Assembly: GCA_030617105.1 (NCBI GenBank)
Contig: JAUWWC010000006.1
Span: 1-36,656, forward strand
Origin: Candidatus Nealsoniibacteriota bacterium
GTDB lineage: Bacteria; Patescibacteriota; Minisyncoccia; Minisyncoccales; GWA2-38-27
Reading direction: 5' to 3'
Length of the DNA: 36,656 nucleotides
Part shown: positions 3,528 through 29,039 of the stretch, one piece after another
Numbering within the stretch: position 1 is the first letter of the stretch
How the letters are laid out: each line of letters opens with the position of its first letter
The notes under the pieces: generated by a model
The model's input: only the letters and a program-made list of their open reading frames with translations
The model's database searches: none
Told to the model about the DNA's origin: nothing
Translations under genes and position numbers: made by a program

Positions 3528-5435
3528 TTAAAACGGGGCTATTTCTTTCCACTCAGGAAGAGGCAAAGTTGCTGTTAAAGGTTCTTCTTGATAACAGGTT
3601 CTTAGTATTAGGTCAATTGTATCAGTTACATAAAGTCGGACAGTGTAAGGTCCTGCTACAAGGTAAGTATGGGTAATGGGAGTACCATCGGGTTTAGTAA
3701 CATCATCGATAACAGAATCATTATCAAAATCCCATTGATAAAGAGTATCTCCATCATTTTTGCAATTAGCAACTCCAGTATAGCAAGTTGAGGTATCTGT
3801 AAAAGTAACTTCTACTTCAGCTGGAGGACTTAACGGATCCCAACCAAAACTTGGGTTTGGATAAGGATTAGAAGATGTGCTAAAAGTTGTTGGACCTGAT
3901 TGCCATCCAGACCAATTTAGGTTTCCTGTTGCTGCTTTAACGTTTACTCGCCAGTAATAAGTAGTACCAGGTCCTGTGTAGTTAATTTGTAAAGACCTGC
4001 TACCTAATAACTCTCCATCGTTACAGACATCAGAAGGAGAAGAAACTACTGTCACAGCTGAAGTACCAGTCTCACCAGGTAAAACACCACCTTGGTCAAT
4101 GATACAATCTATAGCTTTGTTGATAAACCCTGAATCAGTGGCTACTTGAAGTTTGTATTGAGCTTGATTATCGCCGTCATCTTGATAAGTCCATTCAAAA
4201 CCAACCTGTCCAATCGGACTATTATTACAATATTCTTCATATTGAATATTTGTAGAACCAGGTTCAATATACGGCGGGAAATCAACGTCAGTCATTACTT
4301 TGTAATCTGAAAATAAAAGACAAGCATTTCGAGCTGCTGTTGGATTTTCACAAGTTTCTATACCCGGACAGTCTCCATCAGTAATGCAAACTTGATCAGT
4401 AATACTACAAATCTTTGCATTAATACAATTAAAACTAACCCAGCCAACTACAACATCTCCCCAAGCCCATCCTTCAAATTCAGAAGTGGGAAGAGTAGAA
4501 TTAAGTGAAACTCCATATTCTTGAGGAACAGCTTCATTGGTCAAACCTCTTAATTTTATCCAGCCATCCCAGCCACCTGCAGCTACCAAAGCTTTTGCCC
4601 AGCCAGAAACAACTCTAGTACTTAAATCAATCTCTGCTTGGCAAGAAGCAGGCGAATCAGGACAATCAGCTACATTCACATCTGCTGGCTCAAAACTAAT
4701 CCAACCAATATTCTCTGACCAGGCATAACCTGAAAACAAACCAGTAAAAACATCAACATCTACTCCATAATCAGCAGAACTTCCGCTCCCGCAAGAACCT
4801 CCATCAAGATTGCCGTCAAAATCGCTGTCGCAGTTTCCGCAACTAAAACTAATCCAGCCAATATTATCTGACCAAGCCCAGCCATAAACATTATGATATT
4901 CACAAGGCGGCGGATGGATAGTATAAGTTTCCTCAACCCCTGTTCCAGCCCGAGTAAAGTTAATTTCAGGTCCAGGAAACGCTCCAAGCACAGCACCATT
5001 TACTTTAACTATATAATTATCAGCAGTTGGAACTCCAACTTTATGAGTAACATTAATTGAGCTGGTTTCTTTCCATTCATTAACATAACCATCAGAAACA
5101 TTAGCACTGGAAAATTTGAAATCAGCTGTTCCTGCAGAAGGAGTAATTTCTAAAACTTTATGACCTGCGGTTTTCAAAAGAAAAGGAATGCCGTCCCAAA
5201 CTCCATTTACGGTTAAATCAGTCCCAGAAATAGTTAAAGAATCACACTTAGAACCAGAGGCAACATAAGTGGTGGTGTCCAAACCAGTCAAATCCAAAAT
5301 CACATCTTCTGGACCGAATTCAACCGTGCCTGGACTTGCTTTAGCATAATCAAGATTAAAAAAATAAAAACCAAAAACCAAAGCTAAACAAATCAAAACT
5401 ACAACAAAACCTGTTTTTCTATAATTTTTCACCAT
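3528..5435 (-). CDS. Large exported surface protein with GWxW repeats, Fn3-like and PKD domains
   Basis: 635 aa. An N-terminal hydrophobic segment (about residues 9-27) is a signal peptide or anchor. From about residue 190 come recurrent aromatic units: YGWAWSDNIGWISF, SGYAWSENIGWISFEP, VSGWAKALVAAGGWDGWIKL and FEGWAWGDVVVGWVSF, several carrying Cys pairs. A Fn3-like region follows (FEWTYQDDGDNQAQYKLQVA through YYWRVNVKA), then a PKD domain near the C terminus (YQWDFDNDSVIDD, ITHTYLVAGPYTVRLYVTD). Such modules are typical of extracellular adhesive or structural proteins. It lies about 20 nt after the C1q-like gene, so the two are probably co-transcribed. No sorting motif or C-terminal membrane helix is visible. 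Confidence 0.82.
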   Translation of the reverse strand: MVKNYRKTGFVVVLICLALVFGFYFFNLDYAKASPGTVEFGPEDVILDLTGLDTTTYVASGSKCDSLTISGTDLTVNGVWDGIPFLLKTAGHKVLEITPSAGTADFKFSSANVSDGYVNEWKETSSINVTHKVGVPTADNYIVKVNGAVLGAFPGPEINFTRAGTGVEETYTIHPPPCEYHNVYGWAWSDNIGWISFSCGNCDSDFDGNLDGGSCGSGSSADYGVDVDVFTGLFSGYAWSENIGWISFEPADVNVADCPDSPASCQAEIDLSTRVVSGWAKALVAAGGWDGWIKLRGLTNEAVPQEYGVSLNSTLPTSEFEGWAWGDVVVGWVSFNCINAKICSITDQVCITDGDCPGIETCENPTAARNACLLFSDYKVMTDVDFPPYIEPGSTNIQYEEYCNNSPIGQVGFEWTYQDDGDNQAQYKLQVATDSGFINKAIDCIIDQGGVLPGETGTSAVTVVSSPSDVCNDGELLGSRSLQINYTGPGTTYYWRVNVKAATGNLNWSGWQSGPTTFSTSSNPYPNPSFGWDPLSPPAEVEVTFTDTSTCYTGVANCKNDGDTLYQWDFDNDSVIDDVTKPDGTPITHTYLVAGPYTVRLYVTDTIDLILRTCYQEEPLTATLPLPEWKEIAPF

Positions 5436-5455: not shown

Positions 5456-6022
5456 TCAGAGTAAATGTCCGCTAAATAATGCGTATGGATCCTTATTCCA
5501 ACCCTGACCGGTCAGATCCCAATCCCAATTGTAAACATCCACATAATCATCCTCATTCAAATTCATTATAATACACTTATAGGACCCATCATAGTCAGGG
5601 CCCGCATTAGAATAGACTCGCCCTGCAACTGCCGCCACCCCATTGACACGAATATCCACATACGATCGTCCAGCCTTCGGATATTCTATCCCTCCAAAGC
5701 AAAACTGATATAAACCAGCTACTGGAGCTGTAAATCTCCCTGTAGCGGAGCTATAATGACTGCCATTATTAACTCCTATTACATCAAATAATATTACACC
5801 CCGTGTGGTCCAGTAATCAAACAGGGATACGGAAAATGCAGGACGATCCGGGACTAATACATAGCCGGTAACATAAAGATTATTCCCTACAGTAATATCT
5901 TCCCCAATAGTAGTAGTTCCAGGGCTGGACAAAACCCAATAGCCAATCCCAAAAGCAATGGTTAAAACACAAGCTCCAATTGCTATTTTGTTTTTCCAAA
6001 AGAAAGTTTTAATAAAATTCAT
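5456..6022 (-). CDS. Membrane-anchored C1q/TNF-like domain protein
   Basis: 188 aa. Residues 13-31 form a membrane helix, with an N-terminal cytoplasmic KTFFWKNK stretch. From about residue 57 to the end the pattern matches the C1q (PF00386-type) jelly roll: RPAFSVSL, VILFDVIGVNNGSHYSSATG, RFTAPVAGLYQFCF, VDIRVNGVA and the closing YALFSGHLL. In the family this fold forms trimers that bind proteins or glycans, so I infer an adhesin-like role outside the cell. The first about 47 residues and the upstream leader are nearly identical to those of the gene at 6433-7104, while the rest is unrelated. It has no Shine-Dalgarno sequence, and the leader carries AAAGGTCGA. Confidence 0.82.
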   Translation of the reverse strand: MNFIKTFFWKNKIAIGACVLTIAFGIGYWVLSSPGTTTIGEDITVGNNLYVTGYVLVPDRPAFSVSLFDYWTTRGVILFDVIGVNNGSHYSSATGRFTAPVAGLYQFCFGGIEYPKAGRSYVDIRVNGVAAVAGRVYSNAGPDYDGSYKCIIMNLNEDDYVDVYNWDWDLTGQGWNKDPYALFSGHLL

Positions 6023-6056
6023 ATTTCTTTAAATTATTTTCTAATGTCTCGACCTT
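5879..6056 (-). repeat. 5' cassette copy A (anchor-coding region plus leader)
   Basis: By eye this aligns with 6959-7149 at roughly 90% identity. The part from about codon 25 back through the leader is essentially identical apart from an 11-base tandem duplication in copy B. It includes the start codon, the membrane anchor and the GGTCGA leader motif. Confidence 0.85.
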
Positions 6057-6071
6057 TTTGAAAATGATGAA

Positions 6072-6400
6072 AATGGTGACGTTTCTGAATTTTTTAATTT
6101 TAATTCTTTGGTTTTGGTGGTCTTCCCCGTTTTTTAGGTTTCACTAACATTCCTAATTTTTCCATTATAGTTGTTATGTCTTTTTTGAATTTTTCTGAAC
6201 CTAGTACTCCTCCGTCCTGAAATAATAACCTCTTTCGTATTTTATCATCCTCTATACCTAAAACAAACTCTTGATAATTTTTCGCCATAAAACAAAGTTG
6301 ACACTATTTTCTACTATTTTCTATTTTTATATCATTGACGACTGTCATCAATGATCCATCAAAACGCCTAATTCCCTGTCTAAAAGAGAACCGTCCCCTT
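6072..6400. mobile_element. Degraded RAYT/REP-like element with imperfect inverted ends
   Basis: The left end AATGGTGACGTTTCT (6072-6086) and the right end (reverse complement AAGGGGACGGTTCT, within 6384-6400) match with one indel and two mismatches. Between them lie only a 62-codon C-terminal RAYT remnant and an eight-pair hairpin (6331-6355, ATCATTGA/TCAATGAT). The ends differ from those of the intact unit at 7171-7905, so this is a second element type. It fills the gap between the two surface genes. Confidence 0.6.
6100..6288 (-). pseudogene. RAYT transposase C-terminal remnant
   Basis: 62 codons opening with MAKNYQEFV. The segment GGVLGSEKFKKDI followed by a basic tail KPKKRGRPPKPKN corresponds to the C-terminal region of RAYT proteins; the intact neighbour has GRPLGSSTFIEKLE and KKKPGPKRK in the same place. 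The whole HUH catalytic domain is missing. It sits inside the degraded element at 6072-6400. It could also be an independently translated small basic protein, but a decayed transposase is the simpler reading. Confidence 0.65.
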
Positions 6401-6432
6401 ATACCGCCCTCACCTTAACCTCAGCAGTACTC

Positions 6433-7104
6433 TTATGGCGACCAAGAAGCTTTATTTACCCACGCACCACTACAGCTAGGGCCCGAATAATAACGTATAA
6501 TGAACTGGTTAGTATTCTTATCCACATGCAGAAGCCAGCTTTTCCCAGTGTTAGTATTGTCTAGGCAGATACTAGGATAGGTCGCGCTGGACTGTATTGA
6601 CCCCCTAACGTGTAATTTTTTCTGTGGACTCGTCGTCCCGATGCCGACGTAGCCTGTTGTATCAATTACCATTGCATTGTCGTTTAATACACTACCCCAA
6701 ATTCTGAAATCGCCACTAACATCTTCATTTAAAACATCCCAATAATCATTACCAGATGCAGTATCTTCCAACCTTATCGTTGGTTGCGAGCCTGCAAGAT
6801 GAACTAACTTGTTTGGCGTCGTCGTCCCGATGCCGACGTTGCCGCTGTCATAATAGATGTCGGAACCGCTTTGGGACCAAAGGCCGGAGCCTCCAGCACC
6901 AATACATCCAATAGAATCACAAATAGTACCTGATGCTACTATATTACCGACTACATCAAGATTATTCCCTACTGTTACATCCTCTCCAATAGAGGTAGTC
7001 CCAGGGCTTGATAAAACCCAATACCCAATCCCAAAAGCAATAGTTAAAACACAAGCACCAATTGCTATTTTGTTTTTCCAAAAGAAAGTTTTAATAAAAT
7101 TCAT
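6433..7104 (-). CDS. Anchored tail-fibre-like surface protein with VGIGTT repeats
   Basis: 223 aa. The N-terminal membrane helix (residues 13-31) and leader are shared with the C1q-like gene. The body has two tail-fibre-type motifs, GNVGIGTTTPNKLVHL and GYVGIGTTSPQKKLHVRG, which in phage fibres and bacterial surface proteins form trimeric beta-helical stalks. IRLEDTASGNDYWDV is a typical LamG/fibre-associated segment. This suggests an extracellular stalk or adhesin. The C terminus may be frameshifted: one frame over, the sequence reads LLGRHKSTAEVKVRAV and stop immediately after residue NK (near 6455). A degraded RAYT end begins right at that second stop. Confidence 0.75.
   Translation of the reverse strand: MNFIKTFFWKNKIAIGACVLTIAFGIGYWVLSSPGTTSIGEDVTVGNNLDVVGNIVASGTICDSIGCIGAGGSGLWSQSGSDIYYDSGNVGIGTTTPNKLVHLAGSQPTIRLEDTASGNDYWDVLNEDVSGDFRIWGSVLNDNAMVIDTTGYVGIGTTSPQKKLHVRGSIQSSATYPSICLDNTNTGKSWLLHVDKNTNQFIIRYYSGPSCSGAWVNKASWSP
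6631..6650 (-). repeat. GC-rich 20-mer coding VGIGTT, copy 1
   Basis: CGTCGTCCCGATGCCGACGT (+ strand) is identical at 6820-6839 and 8409-8428. It is far more GC-rich than its surroundings, has short inverted arms (CGTCG/CGACG) and encodes VGIGTT. Confidence 0.9.
6820..6839 (-). repeat. GC-rich 20-mer coding VGIGTT, copy 2
   Basis: Identical to the copies at 6631 and 8409. With the 8409 copy the identity extends to 26 bases. Confidence 0.9.
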
Positions 7105-7149
7105 ATTTCTTTAAATTATTTTCTAATTATTTTCTAATATCTCGACCTT
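6959..7149 (-). repeat. 5' cassette copy B (anchor-coding region plus leader)
   Basis: Partner of 5879-6056. It carries an extra 11-base duplication (TTAGAAAATAA unit repeated) in the leader, and the GGTCGA motif at 7142-7147. Confidence 0.85.
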
Positions 7150-7170
7150 TTTTATTTATAGTTATTTATA

Positions 7171-7905
7171 GGGACACACTACTTAATTATTGCTTGACTT
7201 TCTCTTCGGCCCTGGCTTTTTCTTCTTTAAAGGTTTTTTTAATGTATCTTCTAACTTTTCTATAAAGGTCGAGCTTCCTAAAGGCCTTCCTGTTCTTTCA
7301 TGGAGTTTAAATTTATTTACATCGGATTGGTTAGGAATTTCCTCAAGATATCCCTGCCACTTGCCTATCAAACCCTGTAGAAGATCATCATTTATAAAAG
7401 GAATCTTGGCTATTTTTAAGTGATGTCTTATGCTTGAATATCTATAGTCTTGGGGTCTTTTTACTATATTTGCTCTTACAGGATTAAGAAGAATATATCT
7501 TACAGCAGATATTAGATACGGCTCATCGAGTATGTAGGAACTGAACCTTCCCTGCCAAAGATACCCACGCCAGTTTTCTCTTAAATTAATCATCCTTGTG
7601 TATTTCTGATGGGTTCTTCCAATAGCAATGGATAGATTTTCTTTTTTATTTGGCACCACAATAAGATGAACGTGGTTTGGCATCAGACAATAACACAGTA
7701 TTTCAAGGTTGAAAAGTTTAGAATGAATGGAGAGTAAATTAAGATATGTCTGGTAATCTTTCTCGAAGAAGAAAACCTTTTGCCTGCGATTTCCTCTTTG
7801 TATGATATGATGTGGAAACCCTTCGGTTATTATTCTTGCTATGCGAGGCATGAAAGAATTGTGCCTTGTTCCATTTAAATATTAATGAATTAAGTAGTGT
7901 GTCCC
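7171..7905. mobile_element. RAYT unit bounded by perfect 18-bp inverted repeats
   Basis: GGGACACACTACTTAATT at 7171-7188 is exactly the reverse complement of 7888-7905. The repeats enclose one intact transposase gene, whose TAA stop (7183-7185) lies inside the left repeat. I see no target-site duplication, as expected for HUH/Y1 elements. It is inserted between two surface-protein genes. Confidence 0.85.
7183..7851 (-). CDS. REP-associated tyrosine transposase (RAYT, Y1 HUH nuclease)
   Basis: 222 aa, full length. The N terminus MPRIARIITEGFPHHIIQRG is the classic RAYT opening. The HUH metal site is NHVHLIV (His60, His62), and the catalytic tyrosine is probably Tyr84 in RTHQKYTRMIN. GYLWQGRFSS and YILLNPVRANIV are conserved family blocks. 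The C-terminal basic tail KKKPGPKRK probably helps bind DNA. RAYTs nick and rejoin single-stranded DNA at palindromic REP-like ends and are thought to mobilise or disperse such sequences. The gene is enclosed by matching 18-bp inverted repeats and appears potentially active. Confidence 0.95.
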   Translation of the reverse strand: MPRIARIITEGFPHHIIQRGNRRQKVFFFEKDYQTYLNLLSIHSKLFNLEILCYCLMPNHVHLIVVPNKKENLSIAIGRTHQKYTRMINLRENWRGYLWQGRFSSYILDEPYLISAVRYILLNPVRANIVKRPQDYRYSSIRHHLKIAKIPFINDDLLQGLIGKWQGYLEEIPNQSDVNKFKLHERTGRPLGSSTFIEKLEDTLKKPLKKKKPGPKRKSSNN

Positions 7906-7937
7906 CTTAACATATTTTGCACTGTTTTTCATAATTA

Positions 7938-8663
7938 CTACTCTGCTATTGCCATAACTAATAAACTCCTCCAATCTATAAAACTACCATTTACAATCAT
8001 TTTCTGTTGGATCTTTACCGTACGAGCACCACTAGCTACCCCAGTTTTTCTTCCGAGTAACGTAGAAGAACCACGAAAGTTAGTTTGGTGTTCATTTTCA
8101 CAAATACCAGTACCATCAATTACTAGTCTTATTCTACCCAGAGCACCCTCAGGCCCTGTGCTACCCACATATCCCCATGCCATAATGGTATATGTACTGC
8201 CTGCAGGAAGGTTTACTGAAACGGTAATACAATCCTGATAGGTACCTGATGCTGTGTTCGAGGCTGAAGTCAAATAATTATAGCCAATCACTGGAGCTGA
8301 AGGAACTCCGCCGCCTCCAGCACTCAACCAACTACTAGTGCTGCGTAGATATACATCATTTACATCAAGATTTCCGGCTTGAGCGTTTGGCGCCGGGGTC
8401 TCGGGACTCGTCGTCCCGATGCCGACGTTGCCGTTAGGGACAAGCAAAGCATTTCCGGTAGCTGAAACACCTAAAGCATTTACTATTAGATTACCTTGTT
8501 TGACTTGATCATCAATACTAACATTCAAAGGAGCAGGGACATTTCCTCCAGGAGGAGCTGCGCCTGGTTCTGTCCAGGCAAGGATATAAAAACTGAGAGC
8601 AAAACAGACAACTAAGATACTAAAAACTAATGAAACGATTTTGTATGAAATTTCTTTGCGCAT
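7938..8663 (-). CDS. Exported surface protein with a GNVGIGTTSP stalk motif
   Basis: 241 aa. A membrane helix or signal sequence covers residues 10-29. A Pro/Gly-rich linker follows (EPGAAPPGGNVPAPLNVS), then one fibre motif NGNVGIGTTSPE around residues 78-89, and a Gly-rich hinge SAGGGG. The C-terminal about 120 residues look like a beta-sandwich: alternating hydrophobics, TISVSVNLPAGST-like turns and a closing SLLVMAIAE. I cannot name this domain; it is not obviously C1q. It is probably an envelope-anchored extracellular protein. It is separated from the next surface gene by the RAYT unit, and no AAAGGTCGA leader is present upstream. Confidence 0.75.
   Translation of the reverse strand: MRKEISYKIVSLVFSILVVCFALSFYILAWTEPGAAPPGGNVPAPLNVSIDDQVKQGNLIVNALGVSATGNALLVPNGNVGIGTTSPETPAPNAQAGNLDVNDVYLRSTSSWLSAGGGGVPSAPVIGYNYLTSASNTASGTYQDCITVSVNLPAGSTYTIMAWGYVGSTGPEGALGRIRLVIDGTGICENEHQTNFRGSSTLLGRKTGVASGARTVKIQQKMIVNGSFIDWRSLLVMAIAE
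8409..8428 (-). repeat. GC-rich 20-mer coding VGIGTT, copy 3
   Basis: Identical to the copies at 6631 and 6820, but in a gene whose N terminus is unrelated. With the 6631 copy the identity extends to 25 bases. Confidence 0.9.
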
Positions 8664-9103: not shown

Positions 9104-9640
9104 TTATATATCAAGGTTTCTTTGAGAAATAGTGGTTTGAATTTTTATTCTTGGCTGTGTCCCAATTCCCCCTCCTTCCATTTCCATAAAAATTGTTACT
9201 CTTGGCTGAAGATTAGGACTCTCTCCAGGTATATCCCCAGTAACTTCAACATTAAAATTACTTACTTTAAAATCTCCTGAGGTTAAATTATATATAGTTC
9301 CATCTTTATCTATTTTCAATTGTTCTGCTTCAATAAAAAATCTCCAACATTCAGTAGGATCATGATAGGTTGCGAATTTTATACTATTTGCAGTTTCCAG
9401 ATAATTTGAACCATCAATACAACCTATTTCATCTTTCTTTGCCATTCTTATTGCCCGCTCCATATATTCCACTGCATAACTAACTTGGCTTAAAAGCTGC
9501 TGGTGAGCTAAATTATATCTTTGCAACTTAATAGCTGAAACAAAAACTCCCATAGCAGCTCCAATAACTATAGAAAAAATAAGGGTAGTGACCAGCATTT
9601 CTATCAGGGTGAAAGCTCTATTTTTGTTTAGAATCTTCAT
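9104..9640 (-). CDS. Minor prepilin, PilW/PulJ-like
   Basis: 178 aa from the ATG at 9640. The frame extends upstream to 9715, but the extra 25 residues lie inside the previous gene; the short leader MKILNKNRA followed by FTLIEMLVTTLIFSIVIGA is a proper prepilin signal. Glu5 of the mature protein is present, and the -1 residue is Ala rather than Gly. The rest has a C-terminal beta-rich region. The start lies one base after the stop of the gene at 9642. The PilW/PulJ-like label is by position and size only. Confidence 0.82.
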   Translation of the reverse strand: MKILNKNRAFTLIEMLVTTLIFSIVIGAAMGVFVSAIKLQRYNLAHQQLLSQVSYAVEYMERAIRMAKKDEIGCIDGSNYLETANSIKFATYHDPTECWRFFIEAEQLKIDKDGTIYNLTSGDFKVSNFNVEVTGDIPGESPNLQPRVTIFMEMEGGGIGTQPRIKIQTTISQRNLDI

Positions 9641-9641
9641 A

Positions 9642-10046
9642 TTAATACCAATTATATAGATTTTCTTGGGCAGTAAGTGTATGGACATCGCCTTTCTCTG
9701 TCCATCTAACCTCAACTACGACCCCTAATTTATCAGCTACAGAATCATCAATGGTGATTTTTCTATCGTATTCCGGCAATTGGGAGTGAGTAACCCAGCC
9801 GGTGCTTTCCATGTTCTCATCCCAGTTATTTCCTTGAAGCCAATTGGTGTCCCTGGTGTTTCTAATGTTCTCAATCCCTTCTTTGGCAAGATAAGCAGCG
9901 CTCAACCGATAGCTAGAACTAAAAGTTTGGGAAATTATTTGTTGAACCATGGAATAAGCAGCTAATCCTCCAATTGTGAGCACCAAAACAGCAATTAAAA
10001 CCTCAAGAACTGTAAAACCCTTATTTTTGTCTAAAGCTCTAAACAT
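9642..10046 (-). CDS. Minor prepilin, PilV-like
   Basis: 134 aa: leader MFRALDKNKG, then FTVLEVLIAVLVLTIGGLAAY, the class III signal with Glu5. The mature part carries the AAYLAKEGIENIRNTRDTNW segment typical of PilV/GspI-like minor pilins. It is 2 nt after the FimT-like gene and 1 nt before the next prepilin, so it is part of one operon. Its likely role is in pilus tip priming. Confidence 0.85.
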   Translation of the reverse strand: MFRALDKNKGFTVLEVLIAVLVLTIGGLAAYSMVQQIISQTFSSSYRLSAAYLAKEGIENIRNTRDTNWLQGNNWDENMESTGWVTHSQLPEYDRKITIDDSVADKLGVVVEVRWTEKGDVHTLTAQENLYNWY

Positions 10047-10048
10047 TG

Positions 10049-10567
10049 TTATTCAATATCAATAAATCCTGCTTTATTTACAATAATATCTACGTTTTTG
10101 CTTGTATCGCTTGAAATAGCAATTTCGAGCGTAACATCATTAACGCCTAGATCAGCACCTCCTGGATTCTTAAAAAAAACTTCTGGATCTGGCGGAAGAA
10201 AAATTATAGATATTAAACTTGCAGGAATTATACTATTAATTTCTATGCCACTCTCTAAAGAAATATCTTCGACTTTTTCTGAAGGATTATCATATTCACC
10301 GTCTGAATCCACATCAGCAAATATGGTATAAGATGTACTAGGTGATGATAAACTAATTCCATAACCTCCTTCAGGAACTTCGCCTTCAAACTCTTTCACT
10401 GACATTGCCATTTCCTGAACTGTCCTTATATCTTGAGCCAATTTAAAAGCTGAGCGCTGAAGAGCAAGTTGCTGCTGAGCGGATTGGTAATTAGGGAAAA
10501 GAATTAATGACAAAATCGCAATAATGGCTACTACTATTAAGGACTCTACGAGAGTAAATGCTTTCAT
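10049..10567 (-). CDS. Minor prepilin, GspH/FimT-like
   Basis: 172 aa: a very short leader MKA before FTLVESLIVVAIIAILSLIL, with Glu5 and Ala at -1. Downstream is the beta-rich part seen in GspH/FimT proteins (YTIFADVDSDGEYD). Its start overlaps the pilD stop by 4 bp, implying translational coupling to the peptidase that would process it. Confidence 0.85.
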   Translation of the reverse strand: MKAFTLVESLIVVAIIAILSLILFPNYQSAQQQLALQRSAFKLAQDIRTVQEMAMSVKEFEGEVPEGGYGISLSSPSTSYTIFADVDSDGEYDNPSEKVEDISLESGIEINSIIPASLISIIFLPPDPEVFFKNPGGADLGVNDVTLEIAISSDTSKNVDIIVNKAGFIDIE

Positions 10568-11322
10568 ATGCTAAATAAATTTAAATACCATTGAATTATT
10601 TTTTGGCCCCAGAACAAGGCAATGAATGTTCCTGTTACCAAGAATGGTCCAAAAGGCACCTCGCTTTTCAAGGTTTTTCTTTTTGCTAAAACCAGTCCTA
10701 TTCCTATTATAGCACCAATTAGAAAGCTAAAAAACAAAGCAACTAAAATATATGGGAAACCGAGAAAAAGACCCATAAGAAATGCAAGTTTTATATCGCC
10801 AATTCCCATCCACTTGCCTCGGGAAATAAGCACAATTAATAGAAAAAACGCTGATGCTCCAATAGCGCTTAAAATTAGAGAATTGAAAATTGAAAATTGA
10901 TTAAAAATTAGAAATTGAAAATTGAAAATTAAGGCAATGATAATTGCCGGGTAGATTACTTTGTCAGGAATAATAAAATGTTTTAAATCATAAACGAAAA
11001 TAATGATTAAGAAACAAGAAATCAAAATCCAAAATCCAAATGTCAAACCAAGCTCAAAATCCAAAATCCAAAAAATCAAAACAAATAGAATTGCGGTGGC
11101 TATTTCGACCAATGGGTACTGCGGAGATATGGGTTTTTTACAATATCGGCATTTGCCTCTTAGAATTAAAAAACTAAAAACAGGAATTAAATCCTGCCAA
11201 GATAATTTATGCTTGCAATGAGGACAAAAAGACCTGCCTTTTGGCAGGGCTAAACGGTAAATCACACAATTTAAAAAACTCCCTACAGATAAGCCAAAAA
11301 GAAAAATAAAAATGCTAAACAT
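10564..11322 (-). CDS. pilD: Prepilin peptidase/N-methyltransferase (A24 family)
   Basis: 252 aa with about seven membrane helices. The N-terminal methyltransferase part has the zinc knuckles CPHC and CRYC. The two catalytic aspartates are in YDLKHFIIPD and GIGDIKLAFLMG. It cleaves the leader of each prepilin before Phe1 and methylates the new N terminus at the membrane. Two A/T-rich low-complexity tracts (10880-10931 and 11019-11086) are translated in frame into Phe/Ile/Asn/Leu-rich helices, including FNFQFLIFNQFSIFN between the catalytic motifs. It is followed by FimT with a 4-bp overlap. Confidence 0.95.
   Translation of the reverse strand: MFSIFIFLFGLSVGSFLNCVIYRLALPKGRSFCPHCKHKLSWQDLIPVFSFLILRGKCRYCKKPISPQYPLVEIATAILFVLIFWILDFELGLTFGFWILISCFLIIIFVYDLKHFIIPDKVIYPAIIIALIFNFQFLIFNQFSIFNSLILSAIGASAFFLLIVLISRGKWMGIGDIKLAFLMGLFLGFPYILVALFFSFLIGAIIGIGLVLAKRKTLKSEVPFGPFLVTGTFIALFWGQKIIQWYLNLFSI
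10880..10931. repeat. AATTGAAA-type low-complexity tract inside pilD
   Basis: Repeated AATTGAAA/ATTAGAAA units occur within the coding sequence, read in frame as alternating Phe, Asn, Ile, Leu and Gln. Confidence 0.75.
11019..11086. repeat. AATCCAAA-type low-complexity tract inside pilD
   Basis: Units ATCAAAATCC and AAAATCCAAA recur, interrupted by one GTCAAACCAAGCTC block. They are read in frame as a Trp/Ile/Leu/Phe-rich membrane segment. Confidence 0.75.
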
Positions 11323-11343
11323 TGTTTAATTATATCTTTCTTT

Positions 11344-11844
11344 CTACGGACAAACAATACTTGTTAGTTCCGCTCTGCAGTCACTGGCTCCCAATTCAAT
11401 CTCTCGGCTAGCTCCTTCTGAATCAACGCACCAACAATCTCCTAAATTCAAACTGGAAATAACAGCATAAGCTCCCGCCTCCTCCCTACAACCAATAACT
11501 CCATCAGGTCCATTGTGCTGATCAATATAATTTTCAATCCTCTTAAAATCCCCGCTCTCAGCCAAAGTATCATCACTAGTGTCGCAAACCCCTTCATAGG
11601 TTTCCTCGTTATTATAATACAATTCTCCTGCATTCCTAAGTTCTCTTAGAGCTGTCTTTACTGCTACATCTTCTCCTTGTTTTCTAGTAGCACCTGTCTG
11701 AACTAAAACAATAGCAGTTAAAAAACCAATTATAGCGATTACTACTAATAATTCAACTATAGTAAACCCCTCACCTTTTTGTTTTAAAAAGGTGAGGGGT
11801 ACATCTTTCCTACTCTTTTTTCCAATACAAATAAACTGAGACAT
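11344..11844 (-). CDS. Type IV prepilin with an unusually long leader
   Basis: 166 aa. The cleavage site is [26 protein letters not shown], so the leader is about 26 residues instead of the usual 5-10. Most of that leader (codons for DVPLTFLKQKGEG) is encoded by a perfect 15-bp inverted repeat at 11766-11800, which looks inserted. The mature part has four or more Cys and resembles the neighbouring major-type pilin in its C-terminal ISSLNLGDCWCVDSEGAS segment. It follows the first pilin gene by 34 nt and precedes pilD by 21 nt. Confidence 0.85.
   Translation of the reverse strand: MSQFICIGKKSRKDVPLTFLKQKGEGFTIVELLVVIAIIGFLTAIVLVQTGATRKQGEDVAVKTALRELRNAGELYYNNEETYEGVCDTSDDTLAESGDFKRIENYIDQHNGPDGVIGCREEAGAYAVISSLNLGDCWCVDSEGASREIELGASDCRAELTSIVCP
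11766..11800. repeat. Perfect 15-bp inverted repeat within a prepilin leader
   Basis: ACCCCTCACCTTTTT (11766-11780) and its exact reverse complement (11786-11800) are separated by five bases. The repeat is translated in frame. There is no U-run on either side, so it is not a normal terminator. Confidence 0.95.
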
Positions 11845-11878
11845 TGAAAGTCTGAAAAACTTAACTAAATATTAGTTA

Positions 11879-12325
11879 TTATGGACAAGCAGTTAGAAGA
11901 AAAGTAGCATCACAAACGTCGGTCAATATTAGCAGCTTTTGTGAAGTTCCTTGTGAGTCAACACACCACTGTTCATCAGCAGCATCATTTATAGGAGAAC
12001 AAGCTGCCCACTCACTAGCACTATCATTGCAGATAGCTGTTTGTCCATTATCAAGAATTCCAGCTTCGGCTCTTGCCCAGTCATCGCTGTCTGCAGTAAC
12101 GCAAAAACTCTCAGAAGGAGTTCCACCAGTATTATCATAATTACTCTGATGATCCATAGCCCACAATTCAGCTGATGACCTCAGGCCTGATAAATCCGCT
12201 TTTATAGCTACATCCCTTGCCTTGTTCCTGGCAGCGCCTAATGAAACCAAAACAATTGAAGCAAGAATTCCAATAATAGCAATTACCACTAATAATTCAA
12301 TCAATGTAAAACCTTTCTTTTTCAT
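11879..12325 (-). CDS. Type IV pilin, probably the major subunit
   Basis: 148 aa: leader MKKKG, then [20 protein letters not shown] (Glu5 present) and the conserved [17 protein letters not shown] helix. The C-terminal globular part has several Cys, including a closing [13 protein letters not shown] that suggests a disulfide-bounded D region. It is the first gene after a good extended -10 promoter and has its own about 60-nt leader, which supports high independent expression and so a major-pilin role. The leader carries AAAAGGTCGAG. No Shine-Dalgarno sequence is seen just before the ATG. Confidence 0.87.
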
Positions 12326-12358
12326 AAATATCTATGATTTATTTTTTAATTAGAGTAC

Positions 12359-12364
12359 TCGACC
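12359..12364 (-). promoter_or_regulatory. GGTCGA leader motif before the pilin gene
   Basis: AAAAGGTCGAG on the minus strand ends 33 nt before the ATG and lies inside the predicted 5' UTR. The same core precedes the two cassette-type surface genes and the second VirB2-like gene. Confidence 0.5.
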
Positions 12365-12392
12365 TTTTGGTTTTTTAATAACCTTTATCTAA

Positions 12393-12419
12393 ATTATACC
12401 ACACCTATGCCAAGTCAAG
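12393..12419 (-). promoter_or_regulatory. Promoter of the pilin operon
   Basis: Minus strand: TATAAT (12393-12398) preceded by TGG, an extended -10. A -35-like AACTTG lies at 17-bp spacing and TTGACT at 14. The predicted start gives a leader of about 60 nt, beginning near AAAGGTT. Confidence 0.75.
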
Positions 12420-12432
12420 TTGTGGAAAACTA

Positions 12433-13638
12433 TTACATTATTCCAATTGAGTAAAGAGGCATTAGAACTGCTCCCATTAAACCAGCAACCACTCCTCCTA
12501 AAATAATAATGAAAACTGGCTCAAGAAGTCGGATAAAATTATCTAAACTTGCATCTACATCTCGTTGATAAAATTCCACTACATTCATTAAAGATGAATC
12601 TAAGCTGCCTGTCTTTTCTCCTACTGTTATCATTTGATAAAAAAGAGGGAATATAAGAGAAGGATATTTTTCCAAAACTGAACTTATTGTTTCTCCTTTT
12701 TTAACTTCGTCCCTGGTTTCAATAAGGATTTCTTTGTAAAGGTCGTTATTTACAACCTCCCCTGTAATTTGCAGGGCTTGAGATATAGGGACACCTCCTG
12801 AAATCAAAGTAGAAAGATTTAAAGCGCAGCGGCCAAGATAAAGTTTTTTTAAGAAATTGCCCAATACAGGTAATCTTATTAAATTTCTATCAAAGAACTT
12901 TTTCCCTGTTTTACTTCTTGCAAACCGGAAAAGACCAATTATTAGTCCAAGTAAAACTATAAGCATAACCCACCATTGCTTTTCCAAAAAACCTGAAACT
13001 GCTATCACTATCCGAGTAACTAAAGGAAGCTCCTGGCCAGTTCCTTTTAAAACCTCAGAAAGCTGAGGAATAACATAAACCATTATTAAAGCAACTACTC
13101 CTATGAAAACAAGTAAAATAAAAATGGGATAGATCATTGCCCCTTTTATTTTTCCTCGAAATTCATGTTCTCTTTCCAAATAATCAGCCAAATACAGAAA
13201 AACATCGCTAAGCTTGCCAGAGGCCTCTCCTGATTTGACCATACTGATATAAAAAGGAGTAAAAAGTTTTGGATAAAGAGAAAGGGCCTTAGAAAGAGAT
13301 GTTCCCCCTTCTATCTCTGTAGTAATTTTTAAGATTTTTTCTCTGAAAACAGATTTTCTTGTCTGTTTAGCAATGGCTCGAAAGCTCTCAATTATGGGCA
13401 CATTGGACTTAAACATAATTGATGCCTGCCGGGAGAAAAGCACAATATCTTTTTTGTTAACTCTTTCAATAGCTTTCAACTTTTGAGCATAAAAAGGAAT
13501 AGCTGTTGTTTGTTCCAAAGCAGTTACGTAAAGCCCATGAGCTTTTAAAACACTAAAAGCAGCTTCTCTATTAGAAGCCTCCACCATGCCTGTTTGAATT
13601 TCCCCAGTTTTGCTTCTGGCCTGATAATTAAATTTCAT
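12433..13638 (-). CDS. pilC: Type IV pilus inner-membrane platform protein PilC (GspF family)
   Basis: 401 aa. An N-terminal FNYQARSKTGEIQTGMVEA segment is followed by two GspF domains of about 120 residues (FSRQASIMFKSNVPIIESF; YLGRCALNLSTLISGGVPISQAL). Three membrane helices lie near residues 165-190, 218-240 and 372-395, and SGEASGKLSDVF and VGEKTGSLDSS are family signatures. PilC sits in the membrane and couples the PilB and PilT motors to pilin insertion. Its start is 1 nt after the pilT stop. Confidence 0.96.
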   Translation of the reverse strand: MKFNYQARSKTGEIQTGMVEASNREAAFSVLKAHGLYVTALEQTTAIPFYAQKLKAIERVNKKDIVLFSRQASIMFKSNVPIIESFRAIAKQTRKSVFREKILKITTEIEGGTSLSKALSLYPKLFTPFYISMVKSGEASGKLSDVFLYLADYLEREHEFRGKIKGAMIYPIFILLVFIGVVALIMVYVIPQLSEVLKGTGQELPLVTRIVIAVSGFLEKQWWVMLIVLLGLIIGLFRFARSKTGKKFFDRNLIRLPVLGNFLKKLYLGRCALNLSTLISGGVPISQALQITGEVVNNDLYKEILIETRDEVKKGETISSVLEKYPSLIFPLFYQMITVGEKTGSLDSSLMNVVEFYQRDVDASLDNFIRLLEPVFIIILGGVVAGLMGAVLMPLYSIGIM

Positions 13639-13639
13639 G

Positions 13640-14707
13640 TTATCTTCTAACCAAACTCCTCAACTCAGCTGGATTGAGTGAATAATTCTGAGCAGCTTCT
13701 AAGGCAATCTCTTTTGACCTAACTAAATTAGCCAAATATCTATTCAAAGAAATCATTCCTATTTCAGCTGATGTCTCAATAACCAAAGGTATTTCGTGAA
13801 TTTTATTCTCTCTAATCAAGTTAGCAATAGCTGGAGTATTAAGCATTATCTCGCAACCAGGTATTAATCCTCCTTTAATTCTGGGCACTAATCTTTGAGA
13901 AACTACGCCGAGCAAAGACCCAGAAAGTTGAGCCCGAATTTGACTTTGCTGAGCGCCAGGGAAAGTATCCACAATCCGATGAACAGTTTGGGCAGCTGAA
14001 TTAGTATGTAAAGTAGCTAAGACCAAATGCCCGGTTTCAGCTGCAGTAATAGCAGTGGCTATTGTTTCAGGGTCTCTCATTTCTCCTACCATAATTACAT
14101 CTGGGTCTTGACGAAAGGTAGATTTCAATGCCCTGGCAAAACTTAAAGTATCTAAGTTTAGTTCTCTCTGGTCAATAATTGACCTATCATCTTCAAAAAC
14201 ATATTCAATAGGGTCCTCAATCGTAATTATATGGACAGCCCTGGTATGATTTATTTCATCAATCAAAGCAGCTAAAGTTGTGGATTTCCCCTGGCTGGAA
14301 GGACCAGTAATTAAAACAAATCCTTGAGAAGGACGAATAAACTCATGCAAAATCGGTGGAAGATTTAATTCTTCGATAGTTGAGATTTTACCAGGAATAA
14401 AGCGGAGAGCACAAGAAACATTTCCTTTTTGGAAGAAAATATTAGCCCTAAACCTTGCCTTGTTATTAAAACTGTAAGAAAAATCAATCTCTTTTTCTTT
14501 AAGAAATCTTTCTTGCTGCTTTTCATTCAATAATTCAAAAGCCAGTCCTTTAGTATCTTCTGGAGAAAGTTCCTTTCTTCTAACTAAAGGAACTAATCTG
14601 CCGCCTATTCGCAAAACCGGAGCATGACCCACAGAAATATGAAGATCGGACGCTCTTTGGGTCAGTGCGATTTCTAATAGATTTTTTAAAATAGGAGAAT
14701 AGTTCAT
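13640..14707 (-). CDS. pilT: Pilus retraction ATPase PilT
   Basis: 355 aa, normal length. The N-terminal PAS-like domain RASDLHISVG is diagnostic of PilT. Walker A is GPSSQGKST at 135-143, matching GxxxxGK[ST] but with SSQ where TGS is common. The Asp box is ITIEDPIEYVF, Walker B is DPDVIMVGEMRD (Glu209), and the His box is HLVLATLHTNSA. It powers pilus retraction from the cytoplasmic side. Its start overlaps the receiver-protein stop by 4 bp. Confidence 0.96.
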   Translation of the reverse strand: MNYSPILKNLLEIALTQRASDLHISVGHAPVLRIGGRLVPLVRRKELSPEDTKGLAFELLNEKQQERFLKEKEIDFSYSFNNKARFRANIFFQKGNVSCALRFIPGKISTIEELNLPPILHEFIRPSQGFVLITGPSSQGKSTTLAALIDEINHTRAVHIITIEDPIEYVFEDDRSIIDQRELNLDTLSFARALKSTFRQDPDVIMVGEMRDPETIATAITAAETGHLVLATLHTNSAAQTVHRIVDTFPGAQQSQIRAQLSGSLLGVVSQRLVPRIKGGLIPGCEIMLNTPAIANLIRENKIHEIPLVIETSAEIGMISLNRYLANLVRSKEIALEAAQNYSLNPAELRSLVRR

Positions 14708-15069
14708 TCTAATATCTTCTTTATTTCTTCAACTACCTCACTTGGTGTATAATGCGCTTTTACTAAATATCTCGCTGCGCCTAATTTCAATCCTTTTTCT
14801 ATCTCTTGTTTTTCACCAAGATTAGAGAGAACAATTATTTTTAAAGTGTTTAATTTTTCATCTCTTTCAATCTTTCTAAGAATCTCCCAACCATTAAAAT
14901 TAGGCAAAACAATATCTAAAAGCAAAAGGTCAGGCACATCTTCTTTCATTTTTTTCAAGGCCTCTTTTCCATCAATGGCTACTTGTACTGAAAATCCTGC
15001 CTCTTTTAATTTGGTACTATAGATGTCCACCAAAAATGGGTCATCTTCAACTAATAAAATTGTTTTCAT
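14704..15069 (-). CDS. Stand-alone response-regulator receiver protein
   Basis: 121 aa from the ATG at 15069, chosen because GAGGA lies about 8 nt upstream inside the end of pilB. It is a pure CheY-like receiver: acidic pair Asp9-Asp10, phospho-acceptor Asp52 in DLLLLDIVLPN, Ser82 and Lys104. There is no output domain. It lies between pilB and pilT, overlaps pilT by 4 bp and follows pilB by 1 nt, so it should be made together with the motors. I infer that it tunes extension or retraction by binding; no histidine kinase is in the window. Confidence 0.93.
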   Translation of the reverse strand: MKTILLVEDDPFLVDIYSTKLKEAGFSVQVAIDGKEALKKMKEDVPDLLLLDIVLPNFNGWEILRKIERDEKLNTLKIIVLSNLGEKQEIEKGLKLGAARYLVKAHYTPSEVVEEIKKILE

Positions 15070-15070
15070 A

Positions 15071-16801
15071 TTATTTTTCCTCCGCAACTCTTAATACTTC
15101 CTCCAAAGAGGTAACTCCCTCTAAGACCTTTAATATCCCGTCCTGCTTCATTGTGAGCATTCCTTGGCGCTCAGCTTCCTTTTGAATTTGGGCTTCTGAG
15201 GGCTTTGTTAAAATCAATTGACTAAGCTGGTCAGTCATTTCCAAAATCTCATAAACCCCAATCCGACCAGAATAACCTGCGTTATTACACCTTTTACAAC
15301 CAACTGGCTCATGGATATATAGAGTTTTATCTAATTTAATGCTCTTTTTAACGTTTGCTGGAAAGTTCTCTATTTCTTGTAAAATTATCTTTTTTACTTC
15401 TTTATTTGCTTTTATTTTCTTTTTGCAATGAATGCAAAGTTTTCTTACTAATCTTTGAGCAATAGCCAAACTTAAAGTAGAAGGAAGAAGAAATGGCTGA
15501 ATTCCCATATCAATCAATCTTGGGATTACTCCAAGAGTATTTGATGTATGTAAAGTAGAAAGCAAGATATGGCCAGTTAAAGCTGCGTGAATAGCTAAAG
15601 AAGCGGTTTCTTCATCTCTAATCTCTCCTACCATTAGGATGTCTGGGTCTTGTCTTAAAGTAAAACGGAGGCCGTTAGCAAAACTATAACCAATTTCAGG
15701 TCTTACTTGAGATTGGTTAACTCCTTCAATAAAATACTCTACTGGATCTTCCAAAGTCATTATATTCACCTCTTCTTTATTAAAAAGTCCTAAAATAGCA
15801 TAAAGAGTAGTAGTTTTACCTGAACCAGTAGGCCCAGTAGCTAAAATCATTCCATATGGTTTTTTCAATGCCCCTTCTATTGTTTTAAGGTTTCTTCCAA
15901 TTATCCCCATTCCTTTAAAGTCAGCTTTTCTCTGACCAGGGTCTAAAATCCTTATTGCTACTTTTTCTCCTAAAGTGGTTGGGAAAGTAGAAACCCTAAA
16001 ATCAATACTTCTATCCCCGATTTTAGTGCTAAACCTGCCATCTTGAGGAATTCGGGTCTCATCTATCTTTAAATTAGAAAGAATCTTAATCCTAGCTACT
16101 ATAGCTGGTAAAGTCCTCAGAGGTAAAAAAATGCTAGAATGCAATACCCCATCTAATCTAAAACGGACTCTTAATTTTTCCCTGCCTGGCTCAATATGAA
16201 TGTCTGAGGCATTGCCATCAACAGCATGTCTTAATATAACGGCTACTACTTTTGAAATTGGAGCTTCTTCTACTACTCTTTCAAGCTCAGTTGGCTTAAT
16301 TTTTTTCTTATCAATCTTTTCTTCCTTTTTAAGTTCGGTTTCTAATTCTTCCAAAGCTCTGGTTACTTCTTTTCTTAGAGTTCGGTATTTTCTTAAAAGC
16401 TCATTGAAATTTGATAAAGTAATTAGGAAGATGCGATAACTAAATTTGTTCTGACGGGCTAAAAACTCCAAGGCCTCTCTGGCTTTCAAGTCTTCAGGAT
16501 AAACCATGCCTACTTCTAAACGATTATCTTCTTTAGCCAAAGGTATCATCTGGTAATATCTTGCTGATTCTTCAGGAATTGTTTCTAAAACTTTTAAAAG
16601 AACATCTTGCGGAGAAACTACTTTAAGAGGTATTTTTAGGGTTTCGCTTTTCATTCCAAATAGAAAATCTTCAGAAACAATTCTTTTTTCTAAAATCACC
16701 TCTTCTTCTCTTTTGCCAGAGGTCTTAACTTCATATTCCAAACTAGTTGCCTTTTGTTTCTCTAATATTCCTTTTTTAACCAGTTGTTGAACTAAAGACA
16801 T
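15071..16801 (-). CDS. pilB: Pilus assembly ATPase PilB (GspE family)
   Basis: 576 aa. The N-terminal GspE_N-type domain (residues 1-140) is followed by the ATPase core: NASDIHIEPG, Walker A GPTGSGKTT from residue 323, Asp box MTLEDPVEYF, Walker B DILMVGEIRDEET (Glu393), and His box STLHTSNTLG. The C-terminal zinc site uses Cys456, Cys459, Cys502 and Cys505. It drives pilus extension at the inner face of the membrane. The N terminus immediately follows the small membrane protein gene (1 nt). Confidence 0.97.
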   Translation of the reverse strand: MSLVQQLVKKGILEKQKATSLEYEVKTSGKREEEVILEKRIVSEDFLFGMKSETLKIPLKVVSPQDVLLKVLETIPEESARYYQMIPLAKEDNRLEVGMVYPEDLKAREALEFLARQNKFSYRIFLITLSNFNELLRKYRTLRKEVTRALEELETELKKEEKIDKKKIKPTELERVVEEAPISKVVAVILRHAVDGNASDIHIEPGREKLRVRFRLDGVLHSSIFLPLRTLPAIVARIKILSNLKIDETRIPQDGRFSTKIGDRSIDFRVSTFPTTLGEKVAIRILDPGQRKADFKGMGIIGRNLKTIEGALKKPYGMILATGPTGSGKTTTLYAILGLFNKEEVNIMTLEDPVEYFIEGVNQSQVRPEIGYSFANGLRFTLRQDPDILMVGEIRDEETASLAIHAALTGHILLSTLHTSNTLGVIPRLIDMGIQPFLLPSTLSLAIAQRLVRKLCIHCKKKIKANKEVKKIILQEIENFPANVKKSIKLDKTLYIHEPVGCKRCNNAGYSGRIGVYEILEMTDQLSQLILTKPSEAQIQKEAERQGMLTMKQDGILKVLEGVTSLEEVLRVAEEK

Positions 16802-16802
16802 T

Positions 16803-17078
16803 TTAATACGGTAAAAATGGATTTTCTCGTCCTATCTCGCCTTCAAAAGGAGAAACTTGTTCAAATGGCTGAAGTTGTTGCAGAAATGGATTTTCTAAGA
16901 CACTAAAATCTATTTTTATTTCTTTTACCCCGATTAGCGGGGGAACTTCTTCTAAAACAGGTTCTGGCTTCCTAAAATACCCAAACCACAAAATAACACC
17001 AGTAATCACAAACACTGCTAATACAATTGCTATTAGATATTTTTGCTTTTTTCTTTCTTGAATAAAATCAATAGGCAT
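16803..17078 (-). CDS. Small pilus-locus membrane protein (pilP position)
   Basis: 91 aa: a basic cytoplasmic start, one membrane helix at residues 14-33, then a Pro-rich extracytoplasmic part with the repeated motif ENPFL (residues 57-61 and 85-89). It occupies the usual pilP slot after pilO, overlapping it by 11 bp, but I see no PilP lipoprotein signal or beta-domain. It may contact PilO/PilN. Function is inferred from position only. Confidence 0.7.
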   Translation of the reverse strand: MPIDFIQERKKQKYLIAIVLAVFVITGVILWFGYFRKPEPVLEEVPPLIGVKEIKIDFSVLENPFLQQLQPFEQVSPFEGEIGRENPFLPY

Positions 17079-17625
17079 GGGTTTCTAATGTTAGATTGAA
17101 ATCAAATAAATCTTTTTTTTCTTCAGAAGAAAAAAAGCTGATAGATTTGACTTCAATCAATCTGCTGTTTAGATAAACTGCAGAGAGAAAATTCTTAAAA
17201 GCAGAGTAAGAACCATTAACTGAAATAGAGAAAAACATCTTTTGAATTCTCTCTTCTGAATCCTCTAAAGTTGAACCCTCTAGAGAAAAAAGTTCGCTTA
17301 CATCAATTTCTGTTAGAATTAAACCGTTTTCCGAACTTATTTTCTGAAAAAAATTAAAAAGCGCAGCTACTGAAGGCTCTGTCGGAAGAGCAGAATCAAT
17401 CTTGGAAACTTCTTCATCATATCCTGACAACTTCTCTGAAAGAATCTCTAAGTTTGAAACATATTCTTCTTTGCTTTTAATATCTTCATCTTTTGTTTCT
17501 AATTCTGCTTTTTTGCCTTTAAATTCTTGATATTTAGGCCAGCAAAGAAAATATCCTCCTAAGATTAAAAGGATAAAAAGACAAATAAGAAGAATAATGG
17601 TGATTTTTTTAGAAGTAAGTATCAT
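17068..17625 (-). CDS. pilO: Pilus assembly protein PilO
   Basis: 185 aa: a membrane helix at residues 9-28, a coiled coil (KYQEFKGKKAELETKDEDIKS is its start, cut here to its key region), then an alpha/beta ferredoxin-like domain (FSISVNGSYSAFKNFLSAV) as in PilO/GspM. It pairs with PilN on the outer face of the membrane. The start overlaps the pilN stop by 4 bp. Confidence 0.87.
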   Translation of the reverse strand: MILTSKKITIILLICLFILLILGGYFLCWPKYQEFKGKKAELETKDEDIKSKEEYVSNLEILSEKLSGYDEEVSKIDSALPTEPSVAALFNFFQKISSENGLILTEIDVSELFSLEGSTLEDSEERIQKMFFSISVNGSYSAFKNFLSAVYLNSRLIEVKSISFFSSEEKKDLFDFNLTLETHAY

Positions 17626-18131
17626 TTAAATAAAAGTGAAAAAGTGAAATTAATATTTCCCTCTTCACCTACTGAAACCTCAGTAATTTTTGAGGCTCTT
17701 AAAACGGGTTCCTGTTTTAAAATATCAATTTGCTGTTCAAGTGTTGCAAAATTATCTGTCTGACCAAAAAGAGTTACTTCTCTTGTATTAGAACTGAAAC
17801 TAAACTCAGAAAACCAAACAGAAGGAAGACAGATGCTTTCTAAAAAAAGGAAAATATCTATTGTTTTTTTATGCTGAACAAGCAATTTATTAAAATCATT
17901 TATTTTTTGGTCAATTGGCTCAAGCTCTGCTTCTTTCTCTGCTATGACTTTTTCTAATGGAGCAACTGCTATATCTTTTTCTTGAAGTCCTTGAGACATT
18001 TTTCTAAGAGAGAACTCAAAATAAATATAAACGGCAATAAGGCCAATAAGCAAAATCAGCAAGACAAGTCCAGTAATAATTGTCCAGCCAGGTAGTTTAA
18101 TTTTTACTCTTGGAGTAATTTCTATAGCCAT
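17622..18131 (-). CDS. pilN: Pilus assembly protein PilN
   Basis: 169 aa from the ATG at 18131; a TTG at 18143 would add four residues and overlap pilM by 8 bp. The protein opens MAIEITPRVKIKLPG, a short cytoplasmic segment that in the family docks on PilM, followed by a membrane helix at about residues 18-38, a coiled coil, and a C-terminal domain resembling PilN/GspL (SVWFSEFSFSSNTREVTLFG). It sits between pilM and pilO as expected. Confidence 0.87.
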   Translation of the reverse strand: MAIEITPRVKIKLPGWTIITGLVLLILLIGLIAVYIYFEFSLRKMSQGLQEKDIAVAPLEKVIAEKEAELEPIDQKINDFNKLLVQHKKTIDIFLFLESICLPSVWFSEFSFSSNTREVTLFGQTDNFATLEQQIDILKQEPVLRASKITEVSVGEEGNINFTFSLLFK

Positions 18132-18135
18132 GATT

Positions 18136-29024: not shown

Positions 29025-29030
29025 TCGACC
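29025..29030 (-). promoter_or_regulatory. GGTCGA leader motif before VirB2-like copy 1
   Basis: Minus strand AAAGGTCGAAC, 29 nt before the ATG. A TATAAT formed by the last codons of copy 2 lies 12 nt upstream, so the motif would be near the mRNA 5' end. Confidence 0.5.
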
Positions 29031-29039
29031 TTTATCTTA

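Follow-up and report, generated by a model that had tools for sequence, protein, structure and literature searches.

A duplicated membrane anchor with a replaced ectodomain in predicted mosaic adhesin genes of a Nealsoniibacteriota bacterium, and a 24-nt candidate crossover element in their fibres

Two neighbouring genes at the end of the type IV pilus operon, here called A and B, share a leader and a membrane anchor and continue into unrelated ectodomains. We consider it fairly probable that the anchor was duplicated and an ectodomain replaced, that the two genes belong to anchor/tip mosaic adhesins found throughout the order, and that the fibres of these adhesins exchange modules at a 24-nt element. 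The window, the whole 36,656-nt stretch of DNA that was analysed, is contig 16 of a genome of 543 kb that is 96% complete. Gene content points to the CPR type, and the bacterium would be CPR-like, ultrasmall and of the episymbiont type. On the minus strand the genes run in the order type IV pilus operon (19224 to 9104), a gene for a 98-aa protein, gene C, a RAYT-like (REP-associated tyrosine) transposase gene, B and A; 3′ of A lie genes for a PKD protein and then for LemA, HtpX, a zinc-finger protein and MscS. A and B are predicted to be membrane-anchored mosaic surface adhesins. No known RNA family was matched in the region, and sigma-70 promoters were no commoner there than in shuffled sequence. 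The features are as follows, with the basis of each in brackets (MAT, mosaic adhesive trimer).

3528-5435, minus strand: PKD/Ig-like surface protein, conserved downstream flank (domain search, relatives' loci)
5456-6022, minus strand: gene A (188 aa), whose residues 62-188 form a C1q/TNF-like tip (Pfam PF00386)
5854-6022, minus strand: anchor cassette of A (codons 1-56), with a transmembrane anchor at the N-terminus and the start of the stalk (repeat)
6023-6059, minus strand: 5′ leader of A, common to B, with AAAGGTCGA at 6049-6057 (repeat)
6105-6300, minus strand: possible C-terminal RAYT remnant (KKRGRPPK-type tail by eye, degenerate frame)
6433-7104, minus strand: gene B (223 aa), a fibre of two VGIGTT repeats with a small tip at the C-terminus (match to MAT fibre)
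6631-6654, minus strand: second copy of the 24-nt element in B, its one change being TAC in place of AAC (motif search)
6820-6843, minus strand: 24-nt element, copy 1 of B (motif search; high GC3)
6936-7104, minus strand: anchor cassette of B, codons 1-56 (repeat)
7105-7152, minus strand: 5′ leader of B, common to A, plus an 11-bp tandem duplication, with AAAGGTCGA at 7142-7150 (repeat)
7183-7851, minus strand: RAYT-like transposase, 222 aa, apparently intact (Pfam, NCBIfam)
7938-8663, minus strand: gene C (241 aa), with an anchor of the second type and a variable ectodomain (anchor recurs in the order)
8403-8663, minus strand: anchor of gene C, residues 1-87 (conserved region)
8409-8432, minus strand: copy of the 24-nt element in gene C, where the conserved anchor region ends (motif search)
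9104-19224, minus strand: type IV pilus operon, upstream (gene order)
11879-12325, minus strand: major pilin, with leader element AAAGGTCGA at 12359-12367 (motif search)

The shared part of A and B is a direct repeat (5854-6045 / 6936-7127) of 192 nt at 89% identity, or 175 nt at 92% in an alternative alignment, far above chance expectation. It comprises a leader of 37-48 nt and 49-56 codons, which agrees with the common leader and roughly 47 codons at about 90% identity, identical in their most 5′ part, that a sequence-only reading of this DNA had described. Codons 1-15 are identical, and the longest identical run covers 70 nt (5976-6045 / 7058-7127). From there the identity falls to 93% in codons 16-30, 78% in codons 31-45, 67% in codons 46-60 and 29% in codons 61-100. 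Codons 1-49 differ at 11 synonymous and 2 non-synonymous positions (pS 0.34, pN 0.017), which indicates purifying selection on both copies; synonymous divergence is about 0.4 across codons 16-49. Gene conversion, considered for the identity of codons 1-15, was not relied on, as placement alone gives P of about 0.04. To judge from the sequence, the leader-plus-anchor module was duplicated in tandem in this lineage and one copy or both then received another ectodomain, the order of the two events being presumed.

Beyond the anchor the two proteins do have unrelated domains, as was claimed. Residues 62-188 of A match the Pfam C1q family (PF00386; E 6e-13, 49.6 bits against a curated cut-off of 23.7) over the full profile, positions 1-127 of 127. 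A also matches solved C1q-family chains and carries the sole C1q domain in the genome. The nearest solved structure to B is the MAT fibre Bd2133 (E 3e-10, residues 93-201 of B), with weaker matches to 8ojn and 8oml; further matches of B are to cyanophage tail fibres and to that of a roseophage. AlphaFold modelled B with a mean pLDDT of 39, predicting a helix at residues 2-31, with low confidence elsewhere.

Mosaic adhesive trimers of Bdellovibrio bacteriovorus have a constant N-terminal part and swapped tips (Caulton et al., 2024; PMC10769870). As described there, Bd2133 and Bd1334 are 75% identical in the fibre with the tip exchanged, MATs have VGIGT-type beta-helix repeats with TNF/C1q-like, S74 or non-S74 tips, and they measure about 600-1,100 aa with a conserved beta-rich N-terminal domain of about 130 aa after the signal peptide (PMC10769870). 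Its main text does not mention VGIGT, and no DNA-level element was noticed in the sections consulted. B resembles MATs in its VGIGT-type repeats, which are homologous to the solved fibres, and tips vary on a constant base both between A and B and in gene C across the order. However, in A and B a short transmembrane anchor takes the place of the N-terminal domain of about 130 aa, and the window genes encode only 188-241 aa and lie in a pilus-operon context. Since homologous fibres and swapped tips are shared and the MAT N-terminal domain is absent, we regard these proteins as MAT-like rather than as MATs. An alignment of B with a MAT-like ORF of Bdellovibrionaceae (L466) was confined to the VGIGT region. 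By analogy with MAT tips, the likely targets of the tips of the window proteins are glycans or proteins on the surface of a host or prey cell.

Apart from A and B themselves, no close copy of the cassette was found in this genome or in 246 other genomes of the order. Its anchor has two weak relatives among these genomes (G071 and G186), attached in one case to a beta-helix-like protein and in the other to a beta-propeller-like repeat protein, fold names that were read from the repeats. In the syntenic locus of four relatives (G001 of the same genus, G005, G004 and G006) the order is pilus operon, 98-aa gene, C, PKD, LemA and HtpX, with the 98-aa gene replaced or not recognised in G004; A, B and the transposase gene are missing from all four, and the A/B pair is therefore a recent local addition. 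With two copies only and no close copy in the order, the pair is best described as a private tandem duplication with ectodomain replacement and not as a switching system. The sequence-only reading held that an identical arrangement across all relatives would speak against cassette exchange; the arrangement is not identical, yet no sign of a switching repertoire was seen either.

The joint absence of A, B and the transposase gene from the relatives, and the resemblance of B to phage tail fibres, would also fit ordinary horizontal transfer, in which phage- or plasmid-derived fibre genes were brought in by the RAYT or another mobile element with no special mechanism. We consider this rather unlikely. 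The cassette was found in none of the viral contigs, phage records or genome records searched, the GTDB search being limited to two peptide patterns. Fibre repeats and S74 chaperones are shared with phage tail fibres and tailspikes, but the window genes are cellular and anchored, have no phage genes nearby, and carry a DNA element that most phage VGIGTT sites lack (see below). The transposase itself resembles RAYTs in its Y1 domain (Y1_Tnp, Pfam E 1.5e-12, 48.1 bits over a cut-off of 23) and in the 23-bp inverted repeats that flank it (7166-7188 / 7888-7910); with the NCBIfam model REP_Tyr_transpos (E 4e-19) it reaches 69 bits, below the cut-off of 80. However, it is present as a single copy, no further RAYT being found in the genome, and it lies outside the repeats, upstream of the leader of B at the outer edge, not at the anchor/ectodomain junction. 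It would thus be a bystander and not part of the swap. The possible remnant at about 6105-6300 gave no significant match when searched as a RAYT, and transposase remnants exactly at the junctions, as had been proposed, were not confirmed. In L563 (G049:C48) a RAYT-like ORF adjoins a C-type anchored fibre gene, like in the window.

Gene C points to the same organization on a larger scale. Its anchor is present in 94 of the 246 genomes of the order, in 1-8 copies each, and the ORFs that hold it range widely in length, from about 40 to 1282 aa, contig ends truncating some of them. The ectodomain of gene C differs in each relative examined and ends in S74 in G001. Pairs of this anchor within one genome have 80-99% DNA identity and drop to the random level in codons 75-125. 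Anchor and ectodomain identities are 0.88 and 0.55 in G065, 0.90 and 0.53 in G090, 0.90 and 0.48 in G049, 0.84 and 0.51 in G139, and 0.80 and 0.52 in G032. Upstream of the VGIGTT motif 74% of anchor pairs are above the shuffle null, against 13% downstream. In G246 (L552, G246:C56) tandem fibre genes have anchors identical at 304 of 308 positions and then unrelated ectodomains. The border in L552 is abrupt after ELCISGDC, and B and other fibres have comparable stretches with Cys. G006 apparently contains two C-PKD units, read over a contig break with 102 shared bases. A constant anchor with a swapped ectodomain is thus recurrent in the order, with A/B as a further instance that has a private anchor, and joining interchangeable ectodomains to a constant anchor appears to be a general way of building adhesins in this order.

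The fibre genes have a second peculiarity, at the DNA level. The 24-nt sequence GGCAACGTCGGCATCGGGACGACG encodes GNVGIGTT. B and C together hold it three times, and one of these copies differs by a single change. The same count, again with one single change, holds for AACGTCGGCATCGGGACGACG, for which no copy is expected by chance. GC3 of the element in B and C is 1.00, whereas in the rest of these genes the same amino acids have a GC3 of 0.29, and across loci GC3 of the motif is 0.70 against 0.34 (higher in 26 of 31 loci, p 3e-5). An exact 18-mer was present in 24 of the 246 genomes and its reversed control in none; among the matches listed, one DNA string accounts for 39 of 150 VGIGTT sites. 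At CPR sites the 18-mer was found in 8 of 55 cases where 0.001 were expected from the codon usage of the same ORFs, in loci that were fetched by a degenerate pattern. GTDB genomes contain a 21-mer in at least 118 stretches, from many phyla (CPR, DPANN archaea, Elusimicrobia, Bacteroidia, Acidobacteria, Planctomycetota and Bdellovibrionaceae), of which single records may be MAG contamination. The full 24-mer is present in 104 of the 118 stretches, 19 of these in loci of at most 40% GC. The codon preceding the 21-mer is GGC in 112 of 122 cases, though it lay outside the search pattern. Among phage fibre VGIGTT sites sampled without codon bias the element was found in 0 of 196. The VGIGTT codons are thus conserved as DNA, beyond coding need, which is new here; a search of the papers available yielded no mention of VGIGTT peptides, and the 18-mer was not seen among those listed. 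The 21-nt motif was also seen in DPANN-titled records (L437, L439, L465, L473, L417, L461 and L475), some of about 33-35% GC.

Conservation of these codons could also result from codon selection, acting for example through translational pausing that aids trimer folding, or through mRNA structure, with homology blocks ending merely where structural modules end. Of the scored copies, 123 of 124 are in the VGIGTT frame, which means that protein-level selection sets the place of the element, and the motif apparently corresponds to the capping-loop position described for MAT fibres (PMC10769870). However, loci ranging from 28 to 67% GC all have these same codons, so that codon rarity varies between them. 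The DNA remains conserved even in copies with P, A or R as the last residue, and the near-invariant residues just outside the element (P at +8, L at +12) show an ordinary codon spread. In addition, homology blocks end within a few bases of the element edges. We therefore consider codon selection unlikely as the explanation.

Breakpoints cluster at the element. Internal ends of fibre-region alignment blocks (at least 100 nt, at least 85% identity) were scored as coinciding when they lay at the element in both partners. This was the case for 36 of 111 block ends, and for 0, 0, 0, 2, 1 and 0 when the element was shifted by 60-180 nt; a motif conserved as DNA slightly biases alignment ends toward itself. 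Left block ends are mostly on the first base of GGCAAC. The boundary cases come from 19 locus pairs, mostly within one genome or contig and a few between genomes or contigs, and as about 10 of them are repeats within one gene or contig, the independent cases number about 16. The clearest pair comes from two species (L249 544-878 and L250 1495-1829), which share a 335-nt fibre module at 99.1% identity; the element bounds this module on either side, and the sequences beyond are unrelated. This pattern is what a crossover inside the element would be expected to leave. In L434 (2381-2533) and L497 (7056-7208), a Parcubacteria and a Bacteroidia record with possible MAG contamination, a module of 85% identity begins at the element. 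VGIGTT-type fibres of B, C and the relatives have thus probably had modules exchanged and duplicated by recombination with breakpoints at the 24-nt GNVGIGTT-coding sequence, and we infer that the element is kept as DNA because it serves as a crossover site for fibre modules. More tentatively, and somewhat short of probable, GGCAACGTCGGCATCGGGACGACG could be a common-currency crossover site across phyla that shuffles adhesin and fibre modules within genomes and between species. Exchange in the relatives is often at VGIGTT-coding DNA, but this is not used at the A/B junction: neither A nor the junction (codons about 47-56) has a VGIGTT element, so the crossover model leaves the A/B swap itself unexplained.

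CPR and DPANN cells live attached to other cells, and the locus bears on how they diversify what they bind: it ties mosaic fibres to a type IV pilus operon and displays tip swapping. A junction conserved as DNA would provide a searchable and testable mechanism for adhesin exchange between very distant lineages, and a handle for tip mining. Shufflons and site-specific inversion systems likewise have a pilus-linked adhesin with a constant N-terminus and alternative C-termini, as A and B do, but the A/B locus has no inverted array or recombinase gene and two direct copies only. That recombination between the 5′ cassettes, possibly helped by the RAYT, exchanges or silences ectodomains in a phase-variable manner, as had been proposed in outline, seems very unlikely, although the 70-nt identical run in the same orientation and the RAYT adjoining the repeat speak for it. 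Recombination between two direct copies can only remove the B unit or double it. Neither a third copy nor a silent or alternative cassette, a third ectodomain or a variant junction was found in the genome or the 246 relatives, and the synonymous divergence of codons 16-49 shows that conversion has not been frequent over the whole cassette.

The part of that proposal which stands is a cassette joined to variable ectodomains, for which the leader, the ectodomains in G071 and G186 and the order-wide pattern of gene C all argue. The element AAAGGTCGA sits 35 nt (A) and 46 nt (B) before the start codons. The major pilin gene of this genome also has it upstream, as do those of most genomes of the order with a fetched pilin locus and some other secreted or membrane genes. 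There are 30 unique occurrences in 747 kb of a pilin-biased sample, compared to a mean of 4 and a maximum of 14 for permuted 9-mers, and nearly all lie 26-51 nt ahead of an ORF start. When a TATAAT-like box can be made out, AAAGGTCGA is downstream of it and may thus be located in the 5′ UTR. In a literature search the 9-mer gave only incidental primer-type matches. The leader would carry a regulatory element common to the pilin and other surface genes, and as AAAGGTCGA most likely sets surface-gene expression, the cassette is plausibly an expression-plus-anchor unit. In the window AAAGGTCGA is also present at 29025-29033 on the minus strand, before a VirB2/TrbC-like gene, the distance to the start codon being 35-46 nt at all four sites of the window, and at about 12511 of G000:C17 (L005) a secreted metalloprotease-like gene (HELGHGAGLDDL) has the same leader element.
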